64,000 nt of DNA, from NCBI GenBank assembly GCA_027008645.1, contig JALVEE010000219.1, positions 1 to 64,000 of the forward strand, in the 5' to 3' direction. Position 1 is the stretch's first letter. Every line of letters starts with the position of its first letter. Source of the DNA: Saprospiraceae bacterium. GTDB lineage: Bacteria; Bacteroidota; Bacteroidia; Chitinophagales; Saprospiraceae. Positions 1-18,570 of this stretch are shown here, in pieces. The translations under genes were made by a program, and so were the position numbers. The notes under the pieces were generated by a model. That model ran no database searches, was not told the origin of the DNA, and saw only the letters and a program-made list of their open reading frames with translations.

Positions 1-549
1 ATTAAAAAAGAATGCGATATTCCCATGATTTTGTTTCCGGGCAGTTCCTTTCAACTCAGTTACAAGGCTGATGCCTTACTATTGCTATCATTGATATCAG
101 GTAGAAATGCGGAGTTATTAATCGGCAAACATGTAGTTGTTGCACCATATCTTAAACTAAGCCCCTTGGAAATAATACCAACCGGATATATGTTGATAGA
201 CGGTGGAGTACCTACCACAGTGACATATATGTCCAATACCAATCCTATACCGGCAAACAAACCGGATATTGCCGCTAGTACTGCTATGGCAGGTGAACTT
301 CTCGGACTTCGCACTATATTTATGGATGCAGGTAGTGGAGCCCAAAATCCTATCTATAAAGAGATGATACAAGCGGTTTCCAACACCATAGATATTCCAT
401 TGATTATAGGTGGAGGAATCAAGACTCCTGAAAAAGCACATGAAAATGCAGAAGCAGGAGCTGACCTTATAGTCATCGGAGATATTATTGAAAAAACACC
501 GGAATTGCTACCTGAGTTAGCTGATTCTATTCATTCATTCAACAAATAA
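1..549 (+). CDS. Geranylgeranylglyceryl/heptaprenylglyceryl phosphate synthase family protein (5' truncated by window edge)
   Basis: Open frame runs from base 1 (IKKECDIPMILFPGSS...); TIM-barrel phosphate-binding motifs GYMLIDGG, IFMDAGSGA, LIIGGGIKTPEKA, ADLIVIGDII. Confidence 0.85.
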   Translation: MKKECDIPMILFPGSSFQLSYKADALLLLSLISGRNAELLIGKHVVVAPYLKLSPLEIIPTGYMLIDGGVPTTVTYMSNTNPIPANKPDIAASTAMAGELLGLRTIFMDAGSGAQNPIYKEMIQAVSNTIDIPLIIGGGIKTPEKAHENAEAGADLIVIGDIIEKTPELLPELADSIHSFNK

Positions 550-555
550 TTTATT

Positions 556-1506
556 TTGGCGAACAATGCAGTAGTCATCAGATCAACCGGCTCTTGGTAT
601 GAAGTGGCAACAAAGGAAGGCGAAATCGTAAAATGCCGTATAAAAGGTAAATTCAGGCTTGAAGGAATGAAACTAACCAATCCTGTCGCTGTAGGTGATA
701 TCGTTGATATAGAAATAGAAGATGTAGAGGAAAAAACAGGAATTATAAAAAAAATACACCCTCGAAAAAATATTGTAGTACGCCAATCTCCCCGCAAAAA
801 ACACTTTCTTCATCTCCTCGCCAGTAATATTGACCAAGCAGTGCTAATCGTAACAATCAATAAACCAAAACTAAAACAAGGTTTCATAGATAGATTTTTG
901 TTAATGACAGAACCCTACAATATACCGGTTTCAATTGTATTTAATAAATCAGATCTTTACAATGAGGGGGATATGAGGGTTTTTGAATATCTCAATAGTA
1001 TCTATCAGGAGATTGGGTACAACTGCTATCTTTGTTCTGCAACTGAAAATACAGGAGTAGAAGAAATAAAAAGTCAACTTAAAAATAAAATCAGTTTAAT
1101 TGCAGGACAATCGGGAGTTGGCAAATCGACCTTGATAAATACCATTCAACCAAATCTTAATCTAAAAACAAATGAATTGAGCCAATATACCGGCAAAGGA
1201 CAACATACTACAACATTTGCCGAGATGTTTGATTTGGATTTCGGAGGTAAAATTATAGATACTCCCGGTATAAAAAATCTTAGTTTCAACAACCTAGAAG
1301 TCTTGGATGTTGCTCATAATTTCAGAGAATTTTTCCAAAAATCCGACCAATGCAAATATTCCAATTGCACTCATAGAAACGAACCCGGTTGCGCAGTCAA
1401 AAAAGCAATCGAAGAAGAAGAAATATCAGAATTGAGATACTATAATTATCTGCAGATTCTCGAAGAAATCGAAGCTCAAAATTATTGGGAAAGACACAAG
1501 ATGTGA
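556..1506 (+). CDS. rsgA: Ribosome small subunit-dependent GTPase A
   Basis: Circularly permuted GTPase motifs NKSD, GQSGVGKSTLIN, DTPGI, then Cys/His zinc site (CKYSNCTHRNEPGC); TTG start. Confidence 0.93.
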   Translation: MANNAVVIRSTGSWYEVATKEGEIVKCRIKGKFRLEGMKLTNPVAVGDIVDIEIEDVEEKTGIIKKIHPRKNIVVRQSPRKKHFLHLLASNIDQAVLIVTINKPKLKQGFIDRFLLMTEPYNIPVSIVFNKSDLYNEGDMRVFEYLNSIYQEIGYNCYLCSATENTGVEEIKSQLKNKISLIAGQSGVGKSTLINTIQPNLNLKTNELSQYTGKGQHTTTFAEMFDLDFGGKIIDTPGIKNLSFNNLEVLDVAHNFREFFQKSDQCKYSNCTHRNEPGCAVKKAIEEEEISELRYYNYLQILEEIEAQNYWERHKM

Positions 1507-1686
1507 AAACAAAGTGTTTTCTAATTCGATAAGAGGTTAAAAACCTCTATCTCAGCTACTTTCACTACCCTGAGCCGAAGTGTCTCCGACCTCTCGGCGA
1601 AACCACACTCACCAACCCTGAGCCATCCTTCTGTACAGCAGAACTCCGACCTTTTGACAAAACCAAATATTTTATTACACACTACT

Positions 1687-2937
1687 CTACTCTATCACCT
1701 TTATTCCCACCAATCTGTCATATAGCCCACCAAATGGACGCAGGTAAACCAATATAGTATAATCGTTTTGTGTCTGATACCAAGAGCCCTCAAGATTGGA
1801 TAAATTGATATTTTCATCTTTGTCAACAGTGGCGTAATAATAGTCAAAAACTCCCTGTTTAAACAGGATTTTGCCGGTATATGCCTCCAATTCCTTATCG
1901 TACTTCAATTTATTTTCTTCGTACAGTTGCCAATCACAAAAACCACCAATCACATATACATCCTGATCCAGTAATGGCGCATTGGTTTTCAATGTAAAAC
2001 TTACATTTGTATATTCACTGCTAATGGCAGCATTGGGATTGTCGTGGTTAAGAAAAAGATAATTGCCATTTATATCTTTATGAAAGAAATAATTGCTAAA
2101 TCTCCGTATCTCATCCTCTTCCAATACAACTTCAACACCTCTTCTCCTGATATCTATTGATTGTATTTCCAAATTGGTATAGTGCAAACTTCTGGTGTCA
2201 AAATACCTGAATTCGTTCAGTGCTTCAAATACAAAAGGGTCAAATGCATCAAATTTGATATTGTCACCGACCAAATACTTCGGAGAAACATTACGTATGG
2301 CATCTATCCATTTATCATTTTGCAAAACCGTAACTTTTAGCTCTTTTAAGGGATCAACTATCCTAAAATTTTTATTGTTCAATACGATTTGAATACTCTG
2401 CGCTGTTCTATATCGCGATACATCTTTGGCATGATCCAATTCAGCCAATATTTTCAGTCTATTTTCAACCACCAAAAACCTTCTTGTAATAACAACATCA
2501 TCATTCTCGTCATATACTATCAATAAATAATTACCCGAAAGCAACCATTTTGTATTTTCATTAGGTAATCGCAGCCTGTAGTGAGTATATTGAAGCAGTG
2601 TAAAACTCGAACTCTTGCTATCCTTTATTTCTTCACCATTGAACCCGTCAAGAAAATCATCTTCTGATATTTCGTCGCTAATATTCCAGTCCATATCACA
2701 ATGAACAATCTTATAATAATAGTTCTTGCTATCACCATCGATATCGTCAAATTCAAAATACAAGGGTATGCCACTCAAGTTCGACACAGGATAAGAAAGG
2801 GGATTATTCCCTGCAAAAAACTTTACAGATTTTATATTTTCTTGATAAACATAATCCTCGTGATAAAAATCCTCTTGACTATTGGCAAAACCAAAAGCAA
2901 ACAAAAATAGAATAGCTATAAAAACCCGCATTGACAC
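1687..2937 (-). CDS. DUF5103 / type IX secretion system plug protein domain protein
   Basis: Signal peptide; NIKSVKFFAGNNPLSYPVSNL..., YKIVHCDMDW, TQNDYTILVYLRPFGGLYDRLVG typical of DUF5103. Confidence 0.8.
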   Translation of the reverse strand: MSMRVFIAILFLFAFGFANSQEDFYHEDYVYQENIKSVKFFAGNNPLSYPVSNLSGIPLYFEFDDIDGDSKNYYYKIVHCDMDWNISDEISEDDFLDGFNGEEIKDSKSSSFTLLQYTHYRLRLPNENTKWLLSGNYLLIVYDENDDVVITRRFLVVENRLKILAELDHAKDVSRYRTAQSIQIVLNNKNFRIVDPLKELKVTVLQNDKWIDAIRNVSPKYLVGDNIKFDAFDPFVFEALNEFRYFDTRSLHYTNLEIQSIDIRRRGVEVVLEEDEIRRFSNYFFHKDINGNYLFLNHDNPNAAISSEYTNVSFTLKTNAPLLDQDVYVIGGFCDWQLYEENKLKYDKELEAYTGKILFKQGVFDYYYATVDKDENINLSNLEGSWYQTQNDYTILVYLRPFGGLYDRLVGIKVIE

Positions 2938-3185
2938 TACTATTATTTATAATAAAAAACTAAAACTACCTAAATCCATCCCGAATACACTCAAAAAGTC
3001 AAAAGATAACAAAAAGAATCAATTTCAAATTTGATGTGCTTTCGTGCAGACACTATATTAACGCAAATCAACAATAAAATTATAAATATAACGCATTTAA
3101 CAATTATTTTATAATATCCCCAACCCTTTTTTCTTTTCTATCGTCTATACTATTAGATTTGATTAAATAATAAAAAAATATAATT

Positions 3186-4451
3186 ATGAAACACTTAGCC
3201 TTTTTACCATCAATTATATCATTATTCAGTCTTGTGATTTTCTTACAATCCTGTAGTTTTGACGAATGTAAAGAAACTCGCAGATATGTGTATTACAGAC
3301 CAGTTCACAAAACCGTAGAGCAAATAAGGGATATAAAAATCCTGGGTCCTGAAGCTCTTAAAAATCCGGGCAAAATCTATGTTTACGGCGATTATTTATT
3401 TGTGAATGAAATCAACAGAGGAATACATATCTTTGACAATAGCGATGTCAATAATCCTGTAAATCTTTCTTTCATTTCTATATACGGAAATGTTGATTTG
3501 GCTATAAAAGACAATATACTTTATGCAGACAATTTATTTGATCTGATAAGTATTGATATCACAGATCCTAAAAACCCGCGTTTTGTAAATTCGGTTAAAG
3601 AAATATTCAAAAAAGTATATAGTTCCAATAGGAAGTATGTAGTAGAATATATACCAACGGATACATCTGTAGTCATTGATTGCTCAAATCCGTATTGGGT
3701 ATACCAATATTATGAAAGAGATGGAGGCGTTTACGTTTCTAATGATAAGTTGGGCGAAAGTGGTTCTTCTTGGAATCCTCCACCTAATCCAAACGGAGTT
3801 GGTGGTTCGATGGCAAGATTTACTATCTACAAAAATAGCCTATATACGATAAATAGAAGTAAAATAAATGTTTTTAATATCACTAATCCACAGGCTCCGT
3901 ATTTGACCAATACCGTTAATGTCGGTTGGGGGATTGAGACTCTTTTCCCATACAAAGACAATCTGTTTATCGGTTCAAATACAGGCATGTATATTTACAA
4001 TCTCCAAAACCCCAACACACCTACTTTCCAATTTCAATTCAGACACGGTAGAGCTTGTGATCCCGTATATGCTTTGGGGGATTATGCCTATGTGACTTTG
4101 CGTACGGGTACCAGATGTGGAGGTGATGCAAATCAATTGGACGTATTGGATATAAAAGACCTTAAAAATCCTAAACTTATCAAATCTTATCAAATGTCCA
4201 ACCCTCACGGACTAGGAGTGATTGGAGATAAATTGATTCTATGTGAAGGTGCATTTGGACTAAAGGTTTTGGATATAAAAGACAAAAAAAATATAACAGT
4301 TCAATCAAAAATCGAATCAGGAGACTTCTTTGACGTCATTCCTCTTAGTGAAGATGATATTATAGTGGTAGGCAAGACAGGTTTGTACCAGTACAAATTG
4401 GATAATTATCAGTTGAAAGAATTAAGCTTGATACCAATTGCATTAGAATAG
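3186..4451 (+). CDS. LVIVD-repeat-type beta-propeller lipoprotein
   Basis: Lipobox LQSC; repeated blocks such as LDVLDIKDLKNPKLIKSY and FNITNPQAPYL. Confidence 0.7.
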   Translation: MKHLAFLPSIISLFSLVIFLQSCSFDECKETRRYVYYRPVHKTVEQIRDIKILGPEALKNPGKIYVYGDYLFVNEINRGIHIFDNSDVNNPVNLSFISIYGNVDLAIKDNILYADNLFDLISIDITDPKNPRFVNSVKEIFKKVYSSNRKYVVEYIPTDTSVVIDCSNPYWVYQYYERDGGVYVSNDKLGESGSSWNPPPNPNGVGGSMARFTIYKNSLYTINRSKINVFNITNPQAPYLTNTVNVGWGIETLFPYKDNLFIGSNTGMYIYNLQNPNTPTFQFQFRHGRACDPVYALGDYAYVTLRTGTRCGGDANQLDVLDIKDLKNPKLIKSYQMSNPHGLGVIGDKLILCEGAFGLKVLDIKDKKNITVQSKIESGDFFDVIPLSEDDIIVVGKTGLYQYKLDNYQLKELSLIPIALE

Positions 4452-4558
4452 GGTTGGTGATTTTCTTAGAGCAACAAGGTTATTCCGGCTATCCGAAGTA
4501 CAAAGTAATTTGATAGTGGATGGTGTAGAATTATTTTTACTTATAAAAAATTAAAAAA

Positions 4559-5323
4559 ATGACATATATTAAAAATTTTATTGCAATAATTATTTTGATT
4601 TGTATCTCAGTACAAGTTAATGCACAAAACAATGAAGTAACCAAAGATAAATTAGTATTAAAAAACGGAAGTATAATTTATGGCAAATTACTGAACTACA
4701 ATCCGGCAAAAACCATTGAATTCAAACTTGCGGACAACACCGTTTTGTCTATACCTGATTCAAATATTGTAAGTATTCAGACAAACTATATATCAGATCA
4801 AAACAATATGCAGGATAACAATACTAAAAGGTTTTATAGTTATGTCGCTTTCAATTTATCCCCGGGTAATAGTATTGTCAATAACAGATGGTACGGTAGT
4901 GGTATTTCGGGTACGGGTATTGGAGCGGAATATACGATGCAATTCCGCTTATCCAAGTATGTGTTTACAGGATTTGGGGCAGGGATACAGACATACAATA
5001 CATTCGAAAAAGCTATTTTTTACCCTGTTTTTGTTGATTTGATGACATTGGTTAAAAGCTCCAAATCCTCACCTTTTTTCAGATTACAATTGGGTTATAG
5101 CGCTATATCATCATCAAACGAAGATTATCTTACCGGTTATAAGGGTGGATTGATGTTTAATCCGGCTTTTGGGATAAAATTCGGGACAAAAAACCTGGAT
5201 TATACTCTGGATTTTAACTATAAATACCAAAAGGCATCTTTTGATTATAAATATGATAAAAGTTCCAGTACAAAAGATATTATTTACAGGAGATTTTCAT
5301 TTAGATTTGGAGTTTTATTTTAG
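4559..5323 (+). CDS. Outer membrane beta-barrel-like protein with N-terminal SH3-like strand domain
   Basis: Signal peptide, LKNGSIIYGKLLNYNP motif, alternating amphipathic strands, C-terminal RFGVLF. Confidence 0.6.
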   Translation: MTYIKNFIAIIILICISVQVNAQNNEVTKDKLVLKNGSIIYGKLLNYNPAKTIEFKLADNTVLSIPDSNIVSIQTNYISDQNNMQDNNTKRFYSYVAFNLSPGNSIVNNRWYGSGISGTGIGAEYTMQFRLSKYVFTGFGAGIQTYNTFEKAIFYPVFVDLMTLVKSSKSSPFFRLQLGYSAISSSNEDYLTGYKGGLMFNPAFGIKFGTKNLDYTLDFNYKYQKASFDYKYDKSSSTKDIIYRRFSFRFGVLF

Positions 5324-5334
5324 CAAAAGATTTT

Positions 5335-5874
5335 ATGAGCAAATATTCCGACAAGGATTTGATTGAAGCTTGCAAGAAAAATTCAAGGAAGCATCAAGAG
5401 ATTTTGTATCTAAAATATTTTGATACGATGTACGGAATGTGTTTGCGCCAGACATCAGATGAATCCGCATCTATGAGTATAGTGAATGACGGATTTCTAA
5501 AAGTCTTTAAAAATATAGAAAAATATCAATTCAAAGGCTCATTTGAAGGATGGATTAGAAAAATCATTTACAATAGTATGATAGACCATTTTAGAAATTC
5601 TTCAGGTAAGCAAAAATTTATTGAAATAGATAAGAAACTGAAATTTACGGAAATCGATACGAATATTGAGTACGAAGAACTATTGGAAATAGTGGACACC
5701 TTGCCGGAAAATAGTAAAAGCGTATTTATCATGTACGCTATCGAGGGTTATAATCACAGAGAAATAGCAACTATTAAAGGAATACCTGAGGGAACTTCCA
5801 AATGGTATCTGTCACAAGCCAAGAAAAAACTTAGGGAATTATTAAGCAAAAACAAACTGCAAAATATAATATAA
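5335..5874 (+). CDS. RNA polymerase sigma-70 factor, ECF subfamily
   Basis: Region 2 (FLKVFKNIEKYQFKGSFEGWIRKIIYNSMIDHFR) and region 4 (VFIMYAIEGYNHREIATIKGIPEGTSKWYLSQAKKKLRELL). Confidence 0.93.
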   Translation: MSKYSDKDLIEACKKNSRKHQEILYLKYFDTMYGMCLRQTSDESASMSIVNDGFLKVFKNIEKYQFKGSFEGWIRKIIYNSMIDHFRNSSGKQKFIEIDKKLKFTEIDTNIEYEELLEIVDTLPENSKSVFIMYAIEGYNHREIATIKGIPEGTSKWYLSQAKKKLRELLSKNKLQNII

Positions 5875-5881
5875 AAACGAT

Positions 5882-7126
5882 ATGGGAAAAAGAGATTTTG
5901 ACAATAATTTGAAATATCAAGGTTGGGACCAAATGAGTACTATCCTCGATAAAGAAATGCCTGAAAAAAGAAGAAGCAAGAAGCTATTTTTTCTTATTTT
6001 TCTAATTCCTTCTTTACTGTTTTTAATAGTATCAGGTATAAATATCCTTGAAAATAAGAAACAAAATTCAAGTAAATTTCAAGTAAAGGCTCAAGTCCAA
6101 AAAACAAAAAACAATACAAAAAGCATCAAATCATATAATACCTATACTGGTGATAATAGTCAAACTATCGAAGAAAAATCAAATACAAATATTTCTGAAA
6201 AATCTTCAACAAAATCGAATAGCAATACTCATATTAATAATACACAAAAATATATAAAAACAAAGCAGAAACAAAGCAGAAAAGCACAAACCGTTAAAAA
6301 TGATTTCGCCCTGTCTGAATTCGATTCAAGTAGCTCAAATACCGCGACAAAACCGGTAAATACCAGATTGTCCAAGACATCGAAAAACGATTATATCACA
6401 AATGTATCAAAGCTAAATTCACTACCTGTCCCAGATCTACAAACAAAGCAAAATATTGTTTACAATCCAATAATAAAATTAAAAAAACGCAAAAATATAG
6501 ACTTATTTAACCCCTTTGCAGGAACAAAAATGTACATTTATTCCATAAAAGAAGAACCAAAAACTAAATTTGGTTTGGAAATCGGAAATAGGTTCTCATA
6601 CAGCACAAGATTTTTTACGGATATTTCATTGGCTTATACTCAATCACAAATCGTAAGGCAGCAAATAATACTGAGGACAAAATTTATTAGCTCTATGGAA
6701 AGTAGTAATTATCTTTCTGAAAAAGATAGTATAGTTCTGAATAATAGAAGTTCAGACTTAAAGTTCGGAACATTGCACTTAAGTTTGGATCAAGGCTATA
6801 GATTTAACAACAAACTCAGTACTGCTATCGGAATAAGTATAGACTATACTAAATTGGTAAACAAATACGATTTTTCAGATCCACCTTCTGATTCAATTGA
6901 AAAGTTGTCAGGCTCTACAGATATAACACTCGATAGAATCAGGTATTCATCTCAAATCAATATATCGTACCGGATATTGCAAAATTTATCATTCAATATC
7001 GGTTACAAGCATTATTTTAACACTATCTACAAGATAAAAAGCTCTAAAGATACCGGATACTCAACGACAATCAATAACAAAAACAAGGTCTATAAAACAT
7101 ATATCGGAATAAGGTTTTGGTTCTGA
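5882..7126 (+). CDS. Putative dual-membrane-spanning anti-sigma-like protein: cytosolic N-terminus, TM helix, low-complexity linker, C-terminal outer membrane barrel
   Basis: Charged 32-aa N-terminus, TM LFFLIFLIPSLLFLIVSGI, Ser/Lys/Asn/Thr-rich linker, beta-strand-rich C-terminus ending GIRFWF; 7 bp after the ECF sigma stop. Confidence 0.65.
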   Translation: MGKRDFDNNLKYQGWDQMSTILDKEMPEKRRSKKLFFLIFLIPSLLFLIVSGINILENKKQNSSKFQVKAQVQKTKNNTKSIKSYNTYTGDNSQTIEEKSNTNISEKSSTKSNSNTHINNTQKYIKTKQKQSRKAQTVKNDFALSEFDSSSSNTATKPVNTRLSKTSKNDYITNVSKLNSLPVPDLQTKQNIVYNPIIKLKKRKNIDLFNPFAGTKMYIYSIKEEPKTKFGLEIGNRFSYSTRFFTDISLAYTQSQIVRQQIILRTKFISSMESSNYLSEKDSIVLNNRSSDLKFGTLHLSLDQGYRFNNKLSTAIGISIDYTKLVNKYDFSDPPSDSIEKLSGSTDITLDRIRYSSQINISYRILQNLSFNIGYKHYFNTIYKIKSSKDTGYSTTINNKNKVYKTYIGIRFWF

Positions 7127-7143
7127 TATATCCGAAAATAACA

Positions 7144-7173
7144 AAGGGCTTCAAGTCTTAACCTAAAGCCCTT
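7144..7173 (+). terminator. Hairpin, possible terminator
   Basis: AAGGGCTT ... AAGCCCTT stem 17 bp after the stop; weak downstream T-run. Confidence 0.45.
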
Positions 7174-7294
7174 ATAAAAGCAGAGTTTTTATAACTTACA
7201 CGTCAAAATTTCACTTTATTATCAAATAATTTCGGTGATTTGTCTTGTAAGACACGGATTAAATCAAAAAGGTTGGGTAAAAAGGTGTTTTTTT

Positions 7295-8608
7295 TTACGT
7301 TGACACCATTTGCATCAATAAAGTAGTGATGATAGCCCCTAATGTACCCACAGCATAGCCCAAAACAGCAAGTATTACTCCTACAGTGGCCAAAGAGGGG
7401 TGAAATGCCGCTGCGACTATTGGGGCAGATGCCGCTCCACCAACATTTGCCTGACTACCTACAGCCAAGAAAAAGTATGGTGCTTTTATCAATTTGGCAA
7501 CTATAATCAAAAGTAAGGCGTGTACCGACATCCATACCAGACCGATAACGATAAGCCCTTTATTGGCAAATATCAATGTTAAATCCATTTTCATACCTAT
7601 CGTCACTACTAAAATATAGATGAATACACTTCCAAACTTGCTCGCTCCTGCTCCTTCATAATTTCTTGCCGGAGTGAAGGAAAGGGTGATAGCTATAATA
7701 GTGGATATGCTTATCATCCAAAAGAATTCGGACTGTAAAAATGTGAACATATTTCTGGTGGTTTCCGAATCAATACCTTTGACAAAAGATTTAAAAACCT
7801 CACTTAAATATCCTCCTGCAAAATGAGCAAATCCAACAGTTGAAAATGCTATGGTTGCCAAAATAATTAGATCTGTCAATGAAGGATTTCTTTCAACTTT
7901 CTTTGAGAAAGTAGTTACTTTTTTCTTTAATGCTTCAATAGCCGAAAGGTCTGAATTCAACCAATTGTCAATCTTTTTTGAGCGACCTATCCCAAATAGC
8001 AAAACAGCCATCCATAAATTCGCAACTACAATATCCACAAATACCATACCTCCATATAATTTCTGATTATAGCCGTAAATCTCCAACATCGCAGTTTGAT
8101 TGGCTCCTCCTCCAATCCAACTACCGGCTAATGTAGATAACCCACGCCAAACAGCATCCGGACCTGCACCACCAACAGTTTCAGGCGAAACCAAAGAAAT
8201 CAGATAAACCGCTACCGGACCACCCAGAATGATACCCACAGTTCCCGTAAAAAACATAATCAATGCCTTAGGTCCAAGGTTAAATACCGCTTTTAAATCT
8301 ATGCTCAATGTCATCAGTACTAGTGCTGCCGGCAATAAATACCTGCTGGATACATAATACAGACTGGTTTTGTGGTGTACCAAAACTTCAGCTCCATTTT
8401 TGATTTCAGTGGTATCCCATTCCGGAGCTATTAAGCCCAATGTAGTTAGCAAAGCCGGAATCATATATGCCATAAATAGTCCGGGAATAAACTTATAAAA
8501 CTTTTCCCAAAATCCACCTTTTAGTGACTCTGTGTAAAATACAAACCCCAAACTCAACATCAATAATCCAAAGACAACGGTATCATTAGTAAACACAGGT
8601 GCAGACAT
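7295..8608 (-). CDS. DUF819 family integral membrane protein
   Basis: Polytopic hydrophobic protein; GSWIGGGANQTAM and VGSQANVGGAASAPIVAAAFHPSLATVGVILAVLGYAVGT motifs. Confidence 0.85.
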   Translation of the reverse strand: MSAPVFTNDTVVFGLLMLSLGFVFYTESLKGGFWEKFYKFIPGLFMAYMIPALLTTLGLIAPEWDTTEIKNGAEVLVHHKTSLYYVSSRYLLPAALVLMTLSIDLKAVFNLGPKALIMFFTGTVGIILGGPVAVYLISLVSPETVGGAGPDAVWRGLSTLAGSWIGGGANQTAMLEIYGYNQKLYGGMVFVDIVVANLWMAVLLFGIGRSKKIDNWLNSDLSAIEALKKKVTTFSKKVERNPSLTDLIILATIAFSTVGFAHFAGGYLSEVFKSFVKGIDSETTRNMFTFLQSEFFWMISISTIIAITLSFTPARNYEGAGASKFGSVFIYILVVTIGMKMDLTLIFANKGLIVIGLVWMSVHALLLIIVAKLIKAPYFFLAVGSQANVGGAASAPIVAAAFHPSLATVGVILAVLGYAVGTLGAIITTLLMQMVST

Positions 8609-8660
8609 ACTTAATTTTTTTTTGAACCCAAATATAAAATAAAATTTCTAATTTCTATCA

Positions 8661-8749
8661 GATGTATTTCATTTTTTCGCTTCTCCCATTCTTCACCTCT
8701 GACTCCTAAAGGAAGAATCATCCCATAATGCGAAAAAATGAAATGTGTC
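8661..8749. repeat. Short inverted-repeat-bounded intergenic element (GTGCATTTCATTTTTTCGC family)
   Basis: Left arm gatgtatttcattttttcgc; right arm gcgaaaaaatgaaatgtgtc (17/20 complementary); internally homologous to 41182-41269. Confidence 0.8.
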
Positions 8750-8753
8750 CTTT

Positions 8754-10007
8754 CTATCCTTCTAAACTATGAATAATCAACCCACTTCTTAATTTAGGCT
8801 CAAACCATGTAGTCTTTGGTGGCATTATATTACCCGAATCAGCTATATCGATCAATTGCTTCATCGAAACAGGATAAAGTGCAAATGCTACCTTCCAATC
8901 TCCGGAATCAACTCTTTTTGATAACTCGCCCAATCCTCTGATTCCTCCAATAAAATCAATCCTCTTCGATCTACGCAAATCCTTGATACCTAGAACAGGT
9001 TCCAATACATTTTCGGTAAGTACGGTCACGTCTAAAGTGCCTATGGGATCGCTATCGTCATAAGTTCCTTCTTTTGCAGTCAGTAAATACCATTTTCCAT
9101 CCAGATACATACTAAACTCATGCAATTTTGAAGGCTTTAAGATATCATCCGATTCTTTGATTATATCAAATTTACTTTTTATTTTCTCCAGAAATTCAGA
9201 AGAAGACAAACCGTTCAAATCTTTAACTGTTCGGTTGTAGTCCATGATTGCCAATTGATCATCCGGGAAATGAACTACCAAAAAATAATTGTATTCCTCT
9301 TCACCGGTATGATTTGGGTTTTTGGCTTTTTGTTCGGCTCCTACCAATGCAGCAGCTGCAGTTCTGTGATGACCATCAGCTACATAAGTATAAGGTATTT
9401 TCTCTGCAAATATCTTGGTGATATTATCGATGACGGCTCTATCATCGATTACCCAAAAGTGATGACCGATACCATCTTCCGATACAAAATCGTATTCAGC
9501 AGCTTTATTCTTGATAATATCATTCATTATATCGTCTAATTCCTCAACTTTTGGAAAAGCAAAAAACACCGGTTCAATATTAGCATTATTTACACGAATA
9601 TTTATCATCCTGTCTTCCTCTTTATCAGGTCTGGTCAATTCGTGTTTTTTGATAACTCCGGTAAGATAATCCTCAACTGAAGCACCGGCTACAATACCAT
9701 ATTGTGTTCTACCATCCATGGTCTGACCGTAGATGTAGTAATACTCCTGAGGGTCTTTTACCAATATACCTTCAGCCAGAAATCTGTCAAAATTCTCCCT
9801 TGATTTGTTATATACTTCATCGCTATGCTCATCAATACCCGGAGCAAAATCAATCTCTGCTCTGGTAATATGCAATAAAGAAAAAGGATTTCCCTCAGCC
9901 ATTTTTCTGGCCTCTTCAGAGTTCATAACATCATACGGAAGACTTGCCACCTTCTCAACTAATTCCTTTGGTGGTCTGATTCCTTTGAACGGTTTTATTT
10001 TTGCCAT
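8754..10007 (-). CDS. DUF1015 family protein
   Basis: IKPFKGIRPPKELVEKVASLPYDVMNSEEAR, YVADGHHRTAAA motifs. Confidence 0.9.
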   Translation of the reverse strand: MAKIKPFKGIRPPKELVEKVASLPYDVMNSEEARKMAEGNPFSLLHITRAEIDFAPGIDEHSDEVYNKSRENFDRFLAEGILVKDPQEYYYIYGQTMDGRTQYGIVAGASVEDYLTGVIKKHELTRPDKEEDRMINIRVNNANIEPVFFAFPKVEELDDIMNDIIKNKAAEYDFVSEDGIGHHFWVIDDRAVIDNITKIFAEKIPYTYVADGHHRTAAAALVGAEQKAKNPNHTGEEEYNYFLVVHFPDDQLAIMDYNRTVKDLNGLSSSEFLEKIKSKFDIIKESDDILKPSKLHEFSMYLDGKWYLLTAKEGTYDDSDPIGTLDVTVLTENVLEPVLGIKDLRRSKRIDFIGGIRGLGELSKRVDSGDWKVAFALYPVSMKQLIDIADSGNIMPPKTTWFEPKLRSGLIIHSLEG

Positions 10008-10195
10008 AACGTATTATTTTTATTGTGTGGACAAAAATAATATAAAAAAGGAAAAGTCAAAGCACTTTAAAAAGAAATATAGTATATATTCTTTGTTTAG
10101 GTAGTTACCAGGAATCTTATTCATTTTAGTATTAAAAGGAGTTAATATACTTTTCCTTTTCTCATTTGTTTAACAAATTCCGATAAACTTTTCAT

Positions 10196-10295
10196 TATAT
10201 GCAATTAAATATAGATTTATGCAAATATAAAAATTTATATGCAATTAAATATAAATCATTGAAAATACTTTATTTTATATGCAAATACATATAGC
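10196..10295. repeat. 20-bp-periodic AT-rich tandem repeat, five units
   Basis: Units start at 10196, 10216, 10236, 10256, 10276; tatatgcaattaaatata recurs exactly 40 bp apart (10196, 10236) and as tatatgcaaatacatata at 10276. Confidence 0.75.
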
Positions 10296-10359
10296 TTAGG
10301 TAAGACACCTATTTTAGTAAAGATACTAATTAATCGTAGAATGCTCCATACAAAAAGCA

Positions 10360-10583
10360 GGTGCATTTCATTTTTTCGCATACAAGTTTAATTTTTTTAT
10401 TTGCACAGACCGTCCCGCTTATGAAATCAATCCGTTTTACTTCTATATACTACCTCAATGTGCCGTTAGGCACAAAACATGGGTAAAAAAGGCTATTAAC
10501 CAACTAAAATGCGTGCCGTAGGTACGCTATGTTGCCCACATCAACAAAATTTCTTGTAATAACGCAAAAAATTGAAATGCACC
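10360..10583. repeat. Inverted-repeat-bounded intergenic element with internal hairpins
   Basis: aggtgcatttcattttttcgc ... cgcaaaaaattgaaatgcacct; internal hairpin TGTGCC-GTTA-GGCACA. Confidence 0.75.
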
Positions 10584-10629
10584 TCAAAAAGCCTGCTTAC
10601 TGTCAGATTGTAAATAATGGCAATATCAA

Positions 10630-10655
10630 AAAAGCGCTCCGTGAAGAGCGCTTTT
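10630..10655 (-). terminator. Rho-independent terminator for the superoxide dismutase gene
   Basis: AAAAGCGCTC-CGTGAA-GAGCGCTTTT perfect 10-bp stem followed by T-run on the minus strand. Confidence 0.85.
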
Positions 10656-10688
10656 AATAACAAAACTAAAAATTATTGACAATTAATC

Positions 10689-11294
10689 TTATTTTACTTT
10701 ATGGTATAGACGATCAACTTCTTCCCAATTTATTACATTGAAAAAATCACTGATATATCCACCTCTTTTATTTTGATGTTTTAGATAATATGCGTGTTCC
10801 CATACATCCATACCCAATATCGGGCTTCCTTTGATTTCAGCAAATTGCATCAAAGGATTGTCTTGATTCGCTGTAGATCCAATCCTAAGATTTCCACATT
10901 CAAAGGTCAACCAAGCCCATCCTGAACCAAATCTCCCCAGACCTGCTTTTGTGAATTTTTCCTTGAATTTGGCAAATGAGCCAAAGGTATCATCAATATG
11001 CTTTGCCAAATCACCTGAAGGTTGACCACCACCATTTGGTGACATTATTTTCCAATACATAACATGATTGAAATATCCTCCTCCATTATTTCTTACCGCT
11101 TTATTACAAGGATCAACAGTGGCCAATATCTCTTCAATAGTCATATTTTCCATATCGGTTCCTGCAATTGCTGCATTAAGACCATTAGTATATCCTTGAT
11201 GATGTCCTGTATGATGAACTCTCATAGTAGCTTCATCAATATAAGGTTCTAATGCATTGTAATCATAAGGTAATTCAGGTAATTCAAAAGCCAT
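10689..11294 (-). CDS. sodB: Fe/Mn superoxide dismutase
   Basis: MAFELPELPYDYNALEPYIDEATMRVHHTGHHQGYTNGLN ... DVWEHAYYLKHQNKR; start set at internal MAFELP (ORF track extends to 11333). Confidence 0.95.
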   Translation of the reverse strand: MAFELPELPYDYNALEPYIDEATMRVHHTGHHQGYTNGLNAAIAGTDMENMTIEEILATVDPCNKAVRNNGGGYFNHVMYWKIMSPNGGGQPSGDLAKHIDDTFGSFAKFKEKFTKAGLGRFGSGWAWLTFECGNLRIGSTANQDNPLMQFAEIKGSPILGMDVWEHAYYLKHQNKRGGYISDFFNVINWEEVDRLYHKVK

Positions 11295-11437
11295 ATTTCT
11301 GTTTTTATTTTGCGAATAATACAAATTTAACACAAATACAAGCTATTTGTTGGTCTTATTTTAATTTAATCTTAATAAATGTAGTGGAGGCGACAAATTT
11401 TTTACATTAACATTACATGATTATCATAATTTTTTTT

Positions 11438-12259
11438 CTATTCATTTAATGCCCATTTCAAAGCCTTTTCTTTCGTTGCTCTAAATATAGTGTTGTGTTT
11501 TTCTTTAGGTTCATAAGAATATTCCCATTGTAATTTGCTTGGTGCATTATCTTTTAAAATTTTAGCCAATTGATTCGTATATTGCGCAATGGAGTATTTA
11601 TGATTTTCCAGGCTTGAACCCGCAAACCAAAGTTTTATTTTTTTGTCCGGAAATTTTCTTAAAAGTTCATCCGCTTTTCTTACTAAGTAATGATCATTCC
11701 ACCATATTGAAGGATCTATAGCAATACAAAAATCAAAGATTTCAGGATGTTGCATAAATGTTTCCATCACAAAAAGTCCTGCTAAAGATTCTCCAATAAT
11801 TCCCTTTTTATCTGAAGTTCGGTATTTGCTATTTATATCCGGGATTAGTTCTTGAGTAATAAATGCTCGGAAATTTTTTGCTCCATCTGTCAAAGGACAA
11901 TATTGCTCATCTTCCTTTGTTTCCGAATACCCCGTTAAATCTCTTCCTCTGACAGTATTTTCGATTCCAACAAGAATAATTGGTTGAATAGATTTTTCTT
12001 TAATAAGTTTTTCTAATGTGTTCGCAATATGAGGAAAATCTTCTTTTATTCCACCATCAGGCATATACAATACAGGAAATGAATCATTGCCTTTTTCATA
12101 TGTTGGCGGAGTCCAAATGTTTATTATTCTTGTTTCTCCCACTTTTTTAGATTCTATCTTTATAGTGTCGTGTTTTGGAATCGGGTCATTATATTCAGGA
12201 GTATTATTACAAGCTATTATGAATAAAGACATCAATACTAAATAATTCAAATTTCTCAT
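11438..12259 (-). CDS. Alpha/beta hydrolase-fold esterase, lipoprotein
   Basis: Lipobox-like IIAC; nucleophile elbow GESLAG; esterase-D-type VLYMPDGG and WWNDHY. Confidence 0.8.
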   Translation of the reverse strand: MRNLNYLVLMSLFIIACNNTPEYNDPIPKHDTIKIESKKVGETRIINIWTPPTYEKGNDSFPVLYMPDGGIKEDFPHIANTLEKLIKEKSIQPIILVGIENTVRGRDLTGYSETKEDEQYCPLTDGAKNFRAFITQELIPDINSKYRTSDKKGIIGESLAGLFVMETFMQHPEIFDFCIAIDPSIWWNDHYLVRKADELLRKFPDKKIKLWFAGSSLENHKYSIAQYTNQLAKILKDNAPSKLQWEYSYEPKEKHNTIFRATKEKALKWALNE

Positions 12260-12297
12260 TTTATTCGGTTTTTTTAGTGAATGACAAACGACCCATT

Positions 12298-13263
12298 TTA
12301 TACCGTAAAAGGGTGCTTCGCCAAGGGCAATTTTGCAAAAGGGTGATAATCTCCTTTCAATCCTACCGGAATTTGATGTCTTATATCATGGACAATATCG
12401 ATTGCTTGTTTTGAATCTTCCAAACCAAATCCCTGTCCTGACAATATATGTTCATAACTCTTTGTGTGCAATTCTGTAAATCCTCCACTAAATTCAAATG
12501 TGTCATCACCTATAGTTATAGCTCTATAAGTTCTCAATCCCTTTGCACGAACATCTTCCGGTATAGTATTGTAGTTTATACTTAAAAAATATCTAACTCT
12601 TGCCCTGTCAAATTCAAGATACCCGGCAGCTCTATCATGAGTGTGAATATGGACGATATTCTTATTTATTTTTCCAAATATCCATCCCAACATATCAAAG
12701 AAATGCACTCCGATATTAGTAGCAATACCACCGGATTTTTTCACATCTCCTTTCCAACTGGTATAATACCAATGCCCTCTTGAAGTAAGATAAGCCAAAT
12801 CTATATCATAGATCTTATCCTTAGGCCCGTTTTCAATTTTATTCTTCAATTCGATTACACTTTGATGCAATCGCAGCTGCAATATATTGTATATTCTTTT
12901 ACCTGTTTCAGCCTCTTTATCTTGTAATGCTTCAAGATTCCAGGGATTGAGAACAATGGGTTTTTCACATATCACATCAGCCCCTCTATTAAGACCAAAT
13001 CTCATATGTGCATCGTGAAGGTAATTTGGAGTGCATATACTCACATAATCCAATTTTATGCCGTTTCTTTTTATCTTTTCAATATGTCTGTCGAAACGTT
13101 CAAACTCGATAAAAAAATCAGAATCAGGGAAAAAGCTATCCATTATTCCCACCGAATCAAATGGATCCAGAGCTGCAACAAGATTATTTCCCGTATCTTT
13201 AATCGCCTTCAGATGCCTTGGAGCTATATAACCGGCTGCTCCTATTAGTGCAAAATTTTTCAT
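12298..13263 (-). CDS. Gfo/Idh/MocA family oxidoreductase, WlbA/WbpB-like
   Basis: ALIGAAGYIAPRHLKAI, VSICTPNYLHDAH, CEKPIVLN, GGIATNIGVHFFDML. Confidence 0.85.
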   Translation of the reverse strand: MKNFALIGAAGYIAPRHLKAIKDTGNNLVAALDPFDSVGIMDSFFPDSDFFIEFERFDRHIEKIKRNGIKLDYVSICTPNYLHDAHMRFGLNRGADVICEKPIVLNPWNLEALQDKEAETGKRIYNILQLRLHQSVIELKNKIENGPKDKIYDIDLAYLTSRGHWYYTSWKGDVKKSGGIATNIGVHFFDMLGWIFGKINKNIVHIHTHDRAAGYLEFDRARVRYFLSINYNTIPEDVRAKGLRTYRAITIGDDTFEFSGGFTELHTKSYEHILSGQGFGLEDSKQAIDIVHDIRHQIPVGLKGDYHPFAKLPLAKHPFTV

Positions 13264-13307
13264 AGTGATAATATTATAAATAGTGAGTTAAAATGTGAAT
13301 GTTTTAT

Positions 13308-14711
13308 TTATTTCCCTATTGCGTTGACCTCAAAACCAATCTCTCTTAATTTTTTATGATCGAGAATATTCCTTCCGTCAAAAATATATGCAGGCTTATT
13401 CATGTTATCATATATTTTTTGCCAATCATAATCTTTAAATTCATCCCATTCGGTAATAACAGCTATCGCAAAAGCTCCTTTCATAGCGTCATAAGGATTA
13501 CCGGAATAATTTAGATATTTTCTATTTTCTTTCGGACTTCTTGTCTGTAGATAATCAATATCTTCAAACATTCTTTTTTTAGTGACTTTCGGATCAAAGA
13601 CAAAAATATCAGCCTTATCTTCCATTAAAATATCCGCGACATAAATGGCTGCTGATTCTCTAGTATCATTGGTATCTTTTTTGAATGCCCAACCTAGAAA
13701 TGCTATTTTCTTTCCTGACAATGTATTGTTCAATGAAGCGATTATACTATCTGCAAATCTGTTCTTTTGATAGTCATTTATTTTGATAACATTCTGCCAA
13801 TAATCCGCCACTTCATCCAATCCGTATGACTTGGCGATATAGACCAAATTCAATATATCTTTTTGGAAGCAGGAGCCACCAAAACCTACAGATGCTTTTA
13901 AAAACTTAGGACCGATTCTAGAGTCCATACCAATGGCTTTTGCTACTTCATCTACATCAGCTCCCGTTTTATCGCATAGTGCGGATATCGCATTTATCGA
14001 TGATATTCTCTGAGCAAGAAATGCATTTGCAACAAGTTTTGATAATTCCGATGACCAAATATTGGTTTGTAGAATCCTTTCATCCGGTATCCATTCCCTG
14101 TATATATCAGAAAGAGCCTCGATAGCTCTAAGACCATCCTCTGTTTGTTCCCCACCTATAAGTACCCTGTCAGGATTATTCAAATCCCTTATCGCTGTTC
14201 CTTCCGCTAAAAATTCGGGGTTTGACAACACCTGAAACTTCACACCATTACCGGTATTTGACAGAATTTTATTTACAGCTTGTGCTGTTTTAATCGGAAT
14301 TGTAGATTTCTCAACAACTATCTTATCCGTTTTTGCTACTTTAGCTATAGTTCTGGCACTTGACTCAATATATTTAAGGTCTGCCGCCATCCCCTTTCCC
14401 TTACCATAAGTTTTTGTGGGGGTATTTACCGACATAAAAATCATTTCGGCATATTCCAATTCTTTTTCCACTTCTGTTGAAAAAAACAAATTTCTTCCTC
14501 TCGCTTCTGCTACTACTTCTTTCAATCCCGGTTCATAAACAGGCAAATCATCAAGATTATCACTGTTCCATCGTTTGATTTTTTCAGTATCCAAATCCAC
14601 AACTGTTACTTTTATATGAGGACATTTTTGTGCTATTACAGCCATTGTCGGTCCACCTACATATCCGGCGCCAATACAACAAATTGATTTTATTTTTTCA
14701 GGAATATTCAT
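13308..14711 (-). CDS. ugd: UDP-glucose 6-dehydrogenase
   Basis: ICCIGAGYVGGPTMAVIAQKCPHIKVTVVD, VNTPTKTYGKGKGMAADLKYIE, GFGGSCFQKDILNLVY. Confidence 0.95.
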   Translation of the reverse strand: MNIPEKIKSICCIGAGYVGGPTMAVIAQKCPHIKVTVVDLDTEKIKRWNSDNLDDLPVYEPGLKEVVAEARGRNLFFSTEVEKELEYAEMIFMSVNTPTKTYGKGKGMAADLKYIESSARTIAKVAKTDKIVVEKSTIPIKTAQAVNKILSNTGNGVKFQVLSNPEFLAEGTAIRDLNNPDRVLIGGEQTEDGLRAIEALSDIYREWIPDERILQTNIWSSELSKLVANAFLAQRISSINAISALCDKTGADVDEVAKAIGMDSRIGPKFLKASVGFGGSCFQKDILNLVYIAKSYGLDEVADYWQNVIKINDYQKNRFADSIIASLNNTLSGKKIAFLGWAFKKDTNDTRESAAIYVADILMEDKADIFVFDPKVTKKRMFEDIDYLQTRSPKENRKYLNYSGNPYDAMKGAFAIAVITEWDEFKDYDWQKIYDNMNKPAYIFDGRNILDHKKLREIGFEVNAIGK

Positions 14712-14940
14712 TAGATTAATTATTATTTATTGGCTGGAAGAAAACAGGCACATACCTGATAATATGAACTAATATCAAGCCTGATGTATTTTCTTACAGT
14801 CACTGTTTTTCATTAGAGCACAAAGATATGCATTTGTTTTATCCAATATGAATTTTAATTATTTTTTTAACAAAAAAACATTTCCTCCAAACAAATTTAG
14901 GGTCTATTTTAATGATTGATGCCGTAAATTTTTTGCCCGA

Positions 14941-14998
14941 GCATAAGATTAGCCCCAAACTTCAGTTAGCCCAGAGTGCGCTTCAGCGTACTTACCCA
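14941..14998. repeat. Partial copy, opposite orientation, of the hairpin-rich element at 28.8 kb
   Basis: gcataagattagccccaaacttcagttagcccagagtgcgcttcagcgtactt matches the reverse complement of pieces within 28810-28890. Confidence 0.7.
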
Positions 14999-15078
14999 CT
15001 AAAAAAATAAAATTGAATAAATGTATCATTTTAGAATTTATTTGGTATAATTTGTATATTGCAGCCATAGTTGAGATT

Positions 15079-16518
15079 ATGAGTTTAAAAAGATTTGTCA
15101 AGGATACTGCCGTTTACGGAATCGCCACGATATTGCCTCGAGTGATAAATGTCTTATTGCTCAGACTGTTTACCAATGAGATGAAAACAGATCAATTTTC
15201 TGATGCAACTTATTTCTGGATATTTGCTTCTCTATTCAATGTTTTGTTGACGTATGGGATGGAAACTTCTTTTTTCAGGTTTTTCACAAAGTTAAATAAA
15301 AACAAAAAGGTCTTAAATACAGCTTTTAGTTCTATATTAATTTCAAGTTTTATTTTTCTCGCGGTAATATTGTTCTTTAGATCTCAAATAGCCGGCATAC
15401 TCGGATTTGATGTCAAGTACTTTACCATCTTGGTTTGGGTAACATTTCTCGATACTTTGGTTGTCATACCATATGCATATCTAAGAGTTACAAACCGTCC
15501 GCTAAGATTTGCATTCTACAAGATAACCAATATCTTATTTTATGTGATAGCAATTATTTTCTTTTTTAAATTTTTACCTTACTTGACTGATATCAATCCG
15601 GAATTAAGTTCCATATTTCAAAACAATAATAATGCTGTTTTCATTTTTTATTCCAGTTTTTTTGCAAGTGCAATGACTTTGGTTTTATTTGTTCCTATAT
15701 TAATAAATTTCAAGTTTGAAATCGACAAAAAGCTTTGGAAACAAATGATGCGATACGGTATCCCTATAATGGTGGCAGGTTTGGCTTATATCATCAATGA
15801 AAATTTGGACAAATACTTAATCAGGAGGATGATCAGTCCTGAGATTATGGGGGCTTATGCAGCTACATACAAAATTGGGGTATTTATGTCCTTGTATATA
15901 ACAGCTTTCAGGCTGGGAGCTGAACCGTTTTTTTTCAGCCAAAGCAAGGAGAGCGATGCTAAACAAAAATATGCTACGATTTTATTGTGGTTCACTATTG
16001 TGGGCTCGATTTTCTATGTATTTGTAGTGGCGTATATGGATATAATTTCCTCATTTTTTCTCAAAAAGCAAGAGTATTTGATTACTTTGGCTATTGTTCC
16101 TGTAATTTTATTAGCAAATCTATTGCTTGGTATATATTATAATCTTACTATTTGGTACAAACTAACTGACAAAACAAGATTTGGTATGTATTTATCTGTT
16201 TTTGGAGCTATAATTACCATATTAATCAATATCTTGTTAATTCCCGTTTTTGGTTTTATGGCAGCAGCGTGGGCTACTGTTGCAGCGTACGGCTCTATGG
16301 CTATTGTCTCTTATATTCTAAGTAAAAAATACTATCCTATTGATTATGATATAAAAAAAATAGCTTATTATTTATTAACATCAGCCTTATTATCTTATTT
16401 GATTTTCAAATACTTCTATGATGATCTAATAATAAAAACCTTGATTTTTACCGGATATGGACTAATGATTATCCTTTTAGAAAGGAAAAGTTTGGCGAAT
16501 ATGATACAAAAACAATAA
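15079..16518 (+). CDS. Polysaccharide flippase / oligosaccharide translocase (MATE/Wzx-like)
   Basis: MSLKRFVKDTAVYGIATILPRVINVLLLRLFTNE with many TM segments; start at internal ATG (ORF track starts at 15013). Confidence 0.85.
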   Translation: MSLKRFVKDTAVYGIATILPRVINVLLLRLFTNEMKTDQFSDATYFWIFASLFNVLLTYGMETSFFRFFTKLNKNKKVLNTAFSSILISSFIFLAVILFFRSQIAGILGFDVKYFTILVWVTFLDTLVVIPYAYLRVTNRPLRFAFYKITNILFYVIAIIFFFKFLPYLTDINPELSSIFQNNNNAVFIFYSSFFASAMTLVLFVPILINFKFEIDKKLWKQMMRYGIPIMVAGLAYIINENLDKYLIRRMISPEIMGAYAATYKIGVFMSLYITAFRLGAEPFFFSQSKESDAKQKYATILLWFTIVGSIFYVFVVAYMDIISSFFLKKQEYLITLAIVPVILLANLLLGIYYNLTIWYKLTDKTRFGMYLSVFGAIITILINILLIPVFGFMAAAWATVAAYGSMAIVSYILSKKYYPIDYDIKKIAYYLLTSALLSYLIFKYFYDDLIIKTLIFTGYGLMIILLERKSLANMIQKQ

Positions 16519-16532
16519 ATAAAATACACCAA

Positions 16533-17624
16533 TCAATGCACATAAACCCTCTTCACTCTTGGAGCTATTCTCGACAAGATTTCATATGAAATGGTATTGA
16601 CGGAACGAGCGCATTCTTGCAGGCTGATATTGCTGCCAAAAATCTCTACCTCATCACCTGTTTTGACACTATCCAAACCGCTTATATCAATATAACAAGT
16701 ATCCATAGAAACATTTCCCACAAAAGGGACTTTAGTTCCATTGACCCAAGCCATATTATTGTTGTTTCCAAAGATTCTAAATAATCCATCGGCATATCCC
16801 AATGGAATAATGGCTATTTTTCTATTGTTATTTTTTTTGTATCTAATACCGTATCCTATCCCATCTCCGGGTTTTATCGTTTTTATCTGAATAATTTTGG
16901 TTTTTAAAGTATGTACTGCTTTGAGTTCTTTTGAAATAATACCTGAGATATCATCTCCGTGCATCCCGATTCCAAGGCGAACCATATCAAAATGAGCTTC
17001 CGGAAATCTTATTATGCCGGCACTATTCAATATATGCCGCATTGGACTATTGGAAAGAACCGGTTGAATTTTATCGTACATTTTTTCAAACAATCGTATT
17101 TGCTTATATGTAAAACTATCCATTTCTTTATCCTCACTTGCTGCAAGATGTGAAAAAACAGATACTACTTTTATATTATTATTCGATTTTAAATATTGGA
17201 TTAATTCATTTATCCGGCTTTCTTCAAAACCAAGCCTGTGCATTCCCGTATCAAGTTTCAAATGAATCTTCAATTCGTCAATATCACATTTTTTAAACTT
17301 CTCAAATTGGCTAAAATCGTAAAACGCCGGTTCAAGATTATTTTCGAGCAATATTTTGAAAAAATCAATTTCAGGATTGAAAACCAATATAGGTTTTGTT
17401 ATCCCGTTTTGCCTTAATTCCACCCCTTCATAAGTATATGCTACAGCGAGATAATCTACACCTATCTTTTCATAAAACTTAGCCAACTCTATCGCACTTG
17501 ATCCATATCCCGATGCTTTTATTACCGCACAAAACTTCGTGCTCTGCCCTAAAAATGACTTGTAAATGTTTACATTATGTTCCAATGCATTGAAGTTAGT
17601 CTCTAATACTGTTCTTGACACCAT
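16533..17624 (-). CDS. alr: Alanine racemase
   Basis: AVIKASGYGSSAIELAK PLP-lysine motif, LDTGMHRLGF, VRLGIGMHG, GNVSMDTCYIDIS. Confidence 0.93.
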   Translation of the reverse strand: MVSRTVLETNFNALEHNVNIYKSFLGQSTKFCAVIKASGYGSSAIELAKFYEKIGVDYLAVAYTYEGVELRQNGITKPILVFNPEIDFFKILLENNLEPAFYDFSQFEKFKKCDIDELKIHLKLDTGMHRLGFEESRINELIQYLKSNNNIKVVSVFSHLAASEDKEMDSFTYKQIRLFEKMYDKIQPVLSNSPMRHILNSAGIIRFPEAHFDMVRLGIGMHGDDISGIISKELKAVHTLKTKIIQIKTIKPGDGIGYGIRYKKNNNRKIAIIPLGYADGLFRIFGNNNNMAWVNGTKVPFVGNVSMDTCYIDISGLDSVKTGDEVEIFGSNISLQECARSVNTISYEILSRIAPRVKRVYVH

Positions 17625-17631
17625 TTGCCCC

Positions 17632-18231
17632 TTACTGTTTTTTGGTTATAATCAAACCCTTATGCTTATTTAAAAGTATATCTTTGACTCTATTTTGCCA
17701 TATTTTTTTGAATTTTGACTGCTCGTCCTCCGTAGCTGTCCCACCAATACATTTTTGTAATAATGGAAGCATATCTTTATTTTGCTTTACTACTGATGGA
17801 TTATAAATCATTTTTATAGAATCTCCATTATACTCAAACTCAATGTCGCAATCCAAATTATCATCGTAAAACAATTTATTTTTTCTACTCATCCTCCCCC
17901 CAATACCTCCAAAACCACTTTCATCATTCACACCGAAAATATAGGCAGCTACATTTGCAACTACTCCATTAGTGCCATTCTCCTTAGATCCTTTTGCAAT
18001 AATCTTAATATTGCCTCTTTCGAGCAATTTACTTTCATTTGAAAAATAATCATTTGCCTTAAAACACATAAGATAAGCGCCGGCAACAGTTGGACACGAA
18101 TGTCCTGCAAACTTTACCACATCACTGTAATTAATTTCAATTATTCCATCCTCTATAGCTCCTAAAATATCACTTAAAGGATCATAAAGTTTGATTACCG
18201 GTATTTCTTTAAAAAAATCTGGATATTTCAT
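17632..18231 (-). CDS. FmdE-domain-like protein
   Basis: VVKFAGHSCPTVAGAYLMCFKA (GHxCP-type motif) and GSKENGTNGVVANVAAYIFG. Confidence 0.55.
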   Translation of the reverse strand: MKYPDFFKEIPVIKLYDPLSDILGAIEDGIIEINYSDVVKFAGHSCPTVAGAYLMCFKANDYFSNESKLLERGNIKIIAKGSKENGTNGVVANVAAYIFGVNDESGFGGIGGRMSRKNKLFYDDNLDCDIEFEYNGDSIKMIYNPSVVKQNKDMLPLLQKCIGGTATEDEQSKFKKIWQNRVKDILLNKHKGLIITKKQ

Positions 18232-18314
18232 ACTTCAATATATTAAAAAATTGTGAATATATGTTTCAAAGAACAAATATAATCAAAAACAATTAACCTG
18301 CATTTGGGTGGGTG

Positions 18315-18570
18315 TATTTAATTTTTTCGCATTGTGAGTTCTATCCATCGATTTTATGGAAAGATAATATTTCCCGCTGTACAGTGGGATAAATGTGAAT
18401 AACCGTGGGTGAAACCCGCGGTATCCGAACAAGTAAAATACAACTCCAGATGAGTTGAATATCCATACAACATAATAATTGATAATTGAACACCTTTCGG
18501 CGTTCATATTCCTTCTCAAATTTACCCCGCATTTCATACGGGGCTAATCATATTAAACCACAGTCGTGGT
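18315..18570. repeat. Multi-hairpin intergenic element
   Basis: Begins gtgtatttaattttttcgc; contains six short hairpins at 18373-18388, 18402-18422, 18441-18457, 18488-18505, 18525-18543 and 18557-18570. Confidence 0.75.

Follow-up and report, generated by a model that had tools for sequence, protein, structure and literature searches.

Dual-Membrane Anti-Sigma Factors and Related Systems

The Dma1 and Dma2 proteins of Bacteroides thetaiotaomicron, together with Das1 and Das2, were reportedly described by Pardue et al. in PNAS in 2024. Proteins of this type carry an anti-sigma domain at the N-terminus and a beta-barrel at the C-terminus, connected by a transmembrane (TM) helix and a long disordered tether, and are encoded beside an ECF21 sigma factor, an arrangement in which Das and Dma work as a sigma/anti-sigma pair (PMC13088901). 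Several other systems bear partial resemblance. Firstly, FecR, FecI and their TonB-dependent receptor likewise pass a surface signal to an ECF sigma factor through an anti-sigma factor with one TM helix, but the periplasmic domain of FecR is soluble and depends upon a separate TonB receptor, whereas in the locus considered here the barrel lies within the presumed anti-sigma factor. Secondly, Dma3 shares the TM-tether-barrel logic but is fused to a sigma domain, which in the present case is encoded by a separate gene. Finally, the porin-like barrels of PF13568 and PF13505 (OMP_b-brl) and OmpW share the 8-stranded barrel fold, but here a TM helix and tether take the place of the signal peptide.

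The locus lies within a 64,000-nucleotide stretch of DNA (hereafter the window) from a 4.09-Mb Saprospiraceae-type draft genome, the closest named relative of which is Saprospiraceae MAG JALVAD01. It encodes a 414-aa protein that shares with Dma1 and Dma2 an N-terminal segment presumed to bind sigma, a single TM helix, a long disordered tether, a predicted C-terminal barrel and an adjacent ECF sigma gene, a likeness drawn from the published description of Dma architecture. The present system differs in its occurrence in Saprospiraceae, in the propeller lipoprotein and second outer-membrane barrel that lead the operon, in its W..M...LD.EMP motif, in its predicted own promoter, and in the presence of nine such pairs within a single genome. 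Regulators of this kind are already known from gut Bacteroides; the present one belongs to a conserved four-gene operon that is apparently self-regulated. We consider it likely that the four genes belong to a single outer-membrane signalling operon under its own control, in which the 414-aa protein acts as an anti-sigma factor of the Dma type.

Organization and Conservation of the Operon

On the plus strand, the gene for a beta-propeller lipoprotein is followed by those for a second outer-membrane barrel, the sigma factor and the Dma-type protein (Table 1), with gaps of 11 nt between second barrel and sigma factor and 7 nt between sigma factor and Dma. A sequence-only reading of the window had placed an ECF sigma gene between a gene for a secreted, barrel-like protein and the 414-aa ORF, and all three ORFs were found where that reading had put them. 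The unit of 4559-7126 that it delimited holds with respect to these three genes but not to its left boundary, which moves to 3186, or to 3120 when the promoter is counted. The first gene and the promoter did not figure in that reading. A scan of window positions 1-20000 against Rfam gave no match.

Table 1. Features of the predicted signalling operon (window coordinates)
Feature	Position	Strand	Basis
Predicted ECF-sigma promoter, CCAACC-N16-CGTC	3120..3145	+	Conservation; 64 bp before lipoprotein start codon
Beta-propeller (LVIVD-like) lipoprotein, 421 aa	3186..4451	+	Weak Pfam/TIGR matches; conserved start and position
Predicted outer-membrane protein (second barrel), 254 aa	4559..5323	+	NCBIfam below cut-off; AF2 at low confidence; Foldseek; homologs
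ECF sigma factor, 179 aa	5335..5874	+	Pfam/NCBIfam matches; sigma clade
Dma-type protein, 414 aa	5882..7126	+	AF2; ortholog alignment; hydropathy; published Dma architecture
Predicted cytoplasmic N-terminus, residues 1-34, presumed sigma-binding segment	5882..5983	+	Motif conservation
Predicted inner-membrane TM helix, residues 35-56, N-in by positive-inside	5984..6049	+	Hydropathy; AF2
Predicted disordered periplasmic linker, residues 57-214, Ser/Thr/Asn/Lys rich	6050..6523	+	pLDDT; composition
Predicted C-terminal 8-stranded outer-membrane beta-barrel, residues 215-414, ending RFWF	6524..7123	+	AF2; Foldseek; ortholog Pfam

The family-wide adjacency that had been proposed as a check is indeed observed: the order lipoprotein, barrel, sigma factor, Dma recurs in related genomes and is kept across many Saprospiraceae genera, more than expected by chance. 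The sigma gene lies directly upstream of Dma in about 20 related loci, as it does in the window, and in many loci the two ORFs meet end to end or share about 10 nt. Homologs of the upstream barrel were found in 35 of 61 related genomes and, by a count of coordinates, lie on the same strand and at most about 1.4 kb from a sigma gene of this type in 25 of the 35. The lipoprotein and second barrel are also encoded without an adjacent sigma factor or Dma (for example at loci L062, L064, L094 and L099), so that another primary role is possible for both. Judged by gene order and by a promoter that appears self-targeted, the two look to be tied to the Dma-sigma pair.

Architecture of the Dma-Type Protein

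Searches of Pfam and NCBIfam with the 414-aa ORF returned no family above cut-off. Matches to TcpA and Presenilin were dismissed as chance, and one to NF041647 (2.9e-6, score 26 against a cut-off of 435) as a low-complexity match of the TM segment and linker. The FecR domain (Pfam/NCBIfam) was likewise not matched, and the adjoining genes do not have the look of TonB receptors. The layout read earlier from the ORF, a charged N-terminus, one TM segment, a long linker and an RFWF end, is borne out, with 34 residues assigned to the N-terminus and 158 to the linker. Residues 35-56, directly preceded by KRRSKK, are the sole hydrophobic segment above threshold (KD 2.77). The linker is composed of 50% S/T/N/Q and 17% K/R and, if each residue adds as much as about 0.34 nm, could reach about 50 nm, which exceeds the need of the periplasm.

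An AF2 model based upon an alignment of only 9 diverged sequences contains a helix at residues 3-25, a TM helix from residue 31, an unstructured stretch at 77-214 and eight long strands at 215-412. The barrel alone is well predicted, with pLDDT values of about 86-93 in the best strand blocks; values fall below 50 over residues 50-218 (about 26-40 in the linker), and the mean for the whole protein is 51.9. The sequence-only reading had allowed that failure to predict a C-terminal barrel would count against it, and eight strands are predicted there. In Foldseek searches, the best solved matches of the barrel were the OmpT/Pla family (5.7e-5) and OmpW (2.4e-4), with low TM-scores and poor superposition. 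Among 20 relatives, PF13568 (OMP_b-brl_2) is matched by 9 and PF13505 by 8, and the window protein itself matches PF13505 at 0.013 only. Comparison of the barrel profile with Bacteroidales proteins of like layout gave a probability of 94% (E 1e-7), the Bacteroidales profile, built from three proteins, aligning with the Saprospiraceae profile over the barrel. A common origin of the Dma barrel and the upstream barrel was also considered and is unsupported (hhalign probability 50%). Taken together, the AF2 model, the OMP_b-brl and OMP_b-brl_2 matches of orthologs, the Bacteroidales profile similarity and the published Dma description agree with the dual-membrane architecture first proposed from the ORF, and the 414-aa protein probably reaches from the cell interior to the outer membrane.

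Barrels are exported proteins, and the hydrophobic stretch ends in a small-residue pattern (V-S-G), such that the segment might be an unusual cleaved signal peptide and the 414-aa protein an ordinary outer-membrane barrel with no anti-sigma function. Cleavage is, however, unlikely given an N-region of 34 residues and a hydrophobic stretch of 22, with positive charge mostly on its N-terminal side. Moreover, the N-region carries a motif that is invariant in 20 proteins, a degree of conservation not expected of a signal peptide, while the possible cleavage site is unconserved and Dma always immediately follows the sigma gene in the loci examined. This reading is accordingly regarded as very improbable.

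The N-Terminal Motif and the Sigma Factor

The N-terminus of the Dma-type protein comprises a predicted helix and the motif G-W15-xx-M18-xxx-L22-D23-x-E-M26-P27, followed by the basic KRRSKK. The family form of this motif is W-x2-M-x3-L-D-x-E-M-P, in which W15, M18, L22 and P27 are invariant in all 20 Dma proteins that carry this N-terminus. Mean pairwise identity among the 20 proteins is 0.54 over residues 13-27, compared with 0.21, 0.13 and 0.17 in the TM segment, linker and barrel, respectively, making the predicted cytosolic N-terminus the most conserved part of Dma by far. On this conservation, residues 1-34 are presumed to be the sigma-binding segment.

The product of the preceding gene is, by its domain matches, an ECF sigma factor, an assignment made at the ECF level only (Sigma70_r2, 4e-10; Sigma70_r4_2, 1.9e-13; TIGR02937, 76.9 bits, where the cut-off is 42.9). 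Among 45 sigma factors placed in one tree, the 22 that adjoin a Dma of the W..M..LDxEMP type form a single clade (support 100/99), within which the window sigma falls, and none of 500 shuffles was equally clustered; the FecR-linked sigma factors of the same genome form a separate clade (100/100). Such tracking of the N-terminal motif by the sigma clade is expected of a dedicated sigma/anti-sigma pair, although it is an indirect sign and partly a matter of shared ancestry. Instead of being bound by Dma as proposed, the sigma factor could be held by another anti-sigma factor, the barrel protein being simply a co-transcribed target. That explanation is hardly probable at all: the cluster contains no other anti-sigma gene, the motif and the sigma clade are concordant, and the published homologous Das/Dma form a sigma/anti-sigma pair (PMC13088901).

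The Lipoprotein and the Second Outer-Membrane Barrel

The 421-aa lipoprotein matches TIGR04312 (2.2e-9) and, weakly, the Pfam families Beta_propel (1.7e-4) and LVIVD (0.0065). Its lipobox, LQSC, is followed by SFDEC, and its relatives mostly start with C-x-K/E/Q-D-x-C, of which C-x2-D-x-C is conserved. The export signal of Bacteroidetes surface lipoproteins has been given as K-(D/E)2 or SDDDD (PMC5080379), and the resemblance of SFDEC to this signal makes surface exposure plausible. A second homolog of the lipoprotein in the same genome (C73; L105 1-1609) is divided between two ORFs, after which comes a barrel-like start, has neither a sigma gene nor the promoter motif, and is possibly degraded.

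The 254-aa protein has a predicted signal peptide, an SH3/Sm-like N-terminal beta-domain (residues 30-74) and an OmpW/NspA-like barrel (residues 124-254). Its AF2 model, of low confidence (pLDDT 51.5), places about eight strands at the C-terminus; Foldseek matched the model to OmpW/NspA with a probability of 0.99-1.00 but E values of 0.15-0.28, and the NCBIfam match to the LA_0442/LA_0875 N-terminal family (2.1e-5) is below cut-off. Conserved linkage and a common promoter make this protein a candidate partner of Dma.

The same observations lend themselves to a different division of labor, in which the lipoprotein and second barrel are the sensor and Dma, though a true sigma regulator, is a passive tether that is pulled or cleaved upon assembly or loss of the pair. 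The pair is more widespread and more conserved than the sequence of the Dma barrel, which is highly variable (17% identity), and the promoter is common to all four genes. Set against this are the own-genome paralog C195 and loci L070, L072 and L081, which belong to the same sigma clade and are without the pair, as well as the Bacteroides Dmas, which work without it. A purely passive Dma is thus held to be rather unlikely, albeit a reading of some weight. At L070, L072 and L081, all Saprospiraceae sigma/Dma loci, two small lipoprotein-like genes lie upstream in place of the propeller lipoprotein and barrel.

A Predicted Self-Targeted Promoter

Promoters recognized by ECF sigma factors usually have the layout AAC...CGT. 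Related genomes G002, G003 and G001 keep the core and spacing of the predicted promoter, which lies at -64/-65 in the first two and at -221 in the third. Of 27 lipoprotein upstream regions, 9 contain the pattern AACC-N16/17-CGT(C/A), compared with 0.28 expected from mononucleotide shuffles (two of the 27 rows represent one locus, and several regions are not long enough to assess); none of 46 sigma upstream regions contains it. In about six genera the pattern precedes the gene that opens the operon, and at L084 and L086, which lack the lipoprotein gene and begin with the barrel, it precedes the barrel. It is also present at a second lipoprotein-barrel pair without sigma factor in G003 (L099); it was not found in several sigma-bearing loci (L082, L085, L087, L047), and the paralog clusters of the window's own genome are without it. 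The position of the motif before the first gene, and never before the sigma gene, suggests autoregulation of the whole operon, with the window sigma recognizing the site at 3120-3145.

A genome-wide regulon was also sought and set aside. The strict pattern AACCYTT-N13-CGTC has, besides the 3120-3145 site, two matches that fall within coding genes. The reversed control gives as many (3 and 3), and for that reason we make no claim of trans targets in this genome.

Spread of Dma-Type Pairs

The same genome contains eight further pairs of a sigma factor and a protein with TM segment, linker and C-terminal domain (C195, C13, C309, C42, C188, C273, C228 and C323), and the barrel profile of seven of these paralogs matches that of the window family (probability 97%). 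FecR-type sigma factors are present as well, and the pair at C323 (L026) adjoins a system resembling FecI, FecR and a TonB receptor. At the paralogous clusters C13 and C309 (L029 and L030), a lipoprotein of about 600 aa, sigma factor and Dma are followed by a large secreted protein with dockerin-like repeats, which makes the Dma pairs there possible regulators of surface adhesins. Beyond the Saprospiraceae, Bacteroidales sigma loci L077, L078 and L080 encode proteins of like layout, and the barrels of the two that were scanned exceed Pfam cut-offs.

Other arrangements are seen in the wider set of loci. At L073 (4992-7226) and L076 (4986-7312), a possible split Dma consists of a sigma factor, a short one-TM protein (227 and 248 aa, respectively) with a 'W..L' motif, and a separate secreted protein, which at L073 matches OMP_b-brl_2 (2.4e-13) and at L076 has no Pfam match; this could be an unfused or ancestral form of Dma. 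The L073 record (PBYL01000161.1) is labelled Thalassovita (Pseudomonadota) and carries a sigma factor and genes of Bacteroidota type, and is probably misbinned or misnamed. Finally, sigma factors of the wider group at L028 (3395-4318) and L010 (3342-4599) are accompanied by short one-TM proteins (127 and 221 aa) with no barrel.

Proposed Mechanism and Significance

The order of the genes, the protein architecture, the conservation of the motif, the clade of sigma factors and the promoter motif with its position are all read from sequence, and from them we infer a scheme of sigma binding, topology, autoregulation, sensing and release. The cytosolic N-terminal helix of Dma, with its W..M...LD.EMP motif, would keep the ECF sigma factor inactive at the inner membrane, in which the TM helix would be anchored, while the disordered tether would cross the periplasm and lead to an outer-membrane barrel of 8 strands. 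The sigma factor would be freed by an outer-membrane change that is detected either by the Dma barrel or by co-encoded partners, for which the probably surface-exposed propeller lipoprotein and the second barrel with its periplasmic SH3/Sm-like domain are candidates. Once freed, it would act at the AACC-N16-CGTC promoter to transcribe the operon that encodes it; sensor proteins and Dma would rise in concert, closing a feedback loop.

A bolder proposal, offered tentatively and as somewhat short of probable, is that the propeller lipoprotein, the barrel with the SH3/Sm-like domain and the Dma barrel constitute a Saprospiraceae-wide sensory module, a single complex in the outer membrane from which information on its assembly or on its ligand state passes to a dedicated sigma factor with its own operon as sole or main target. 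As to what Dma barrels sense, the lipoprotein and second barrel provide concrete candidate sensors, and the self-targeted-looking promoter offers a readout from one promoter. The present genome, with its nine pairs, extends Dma-type signalling beyond gut Bacteroides.
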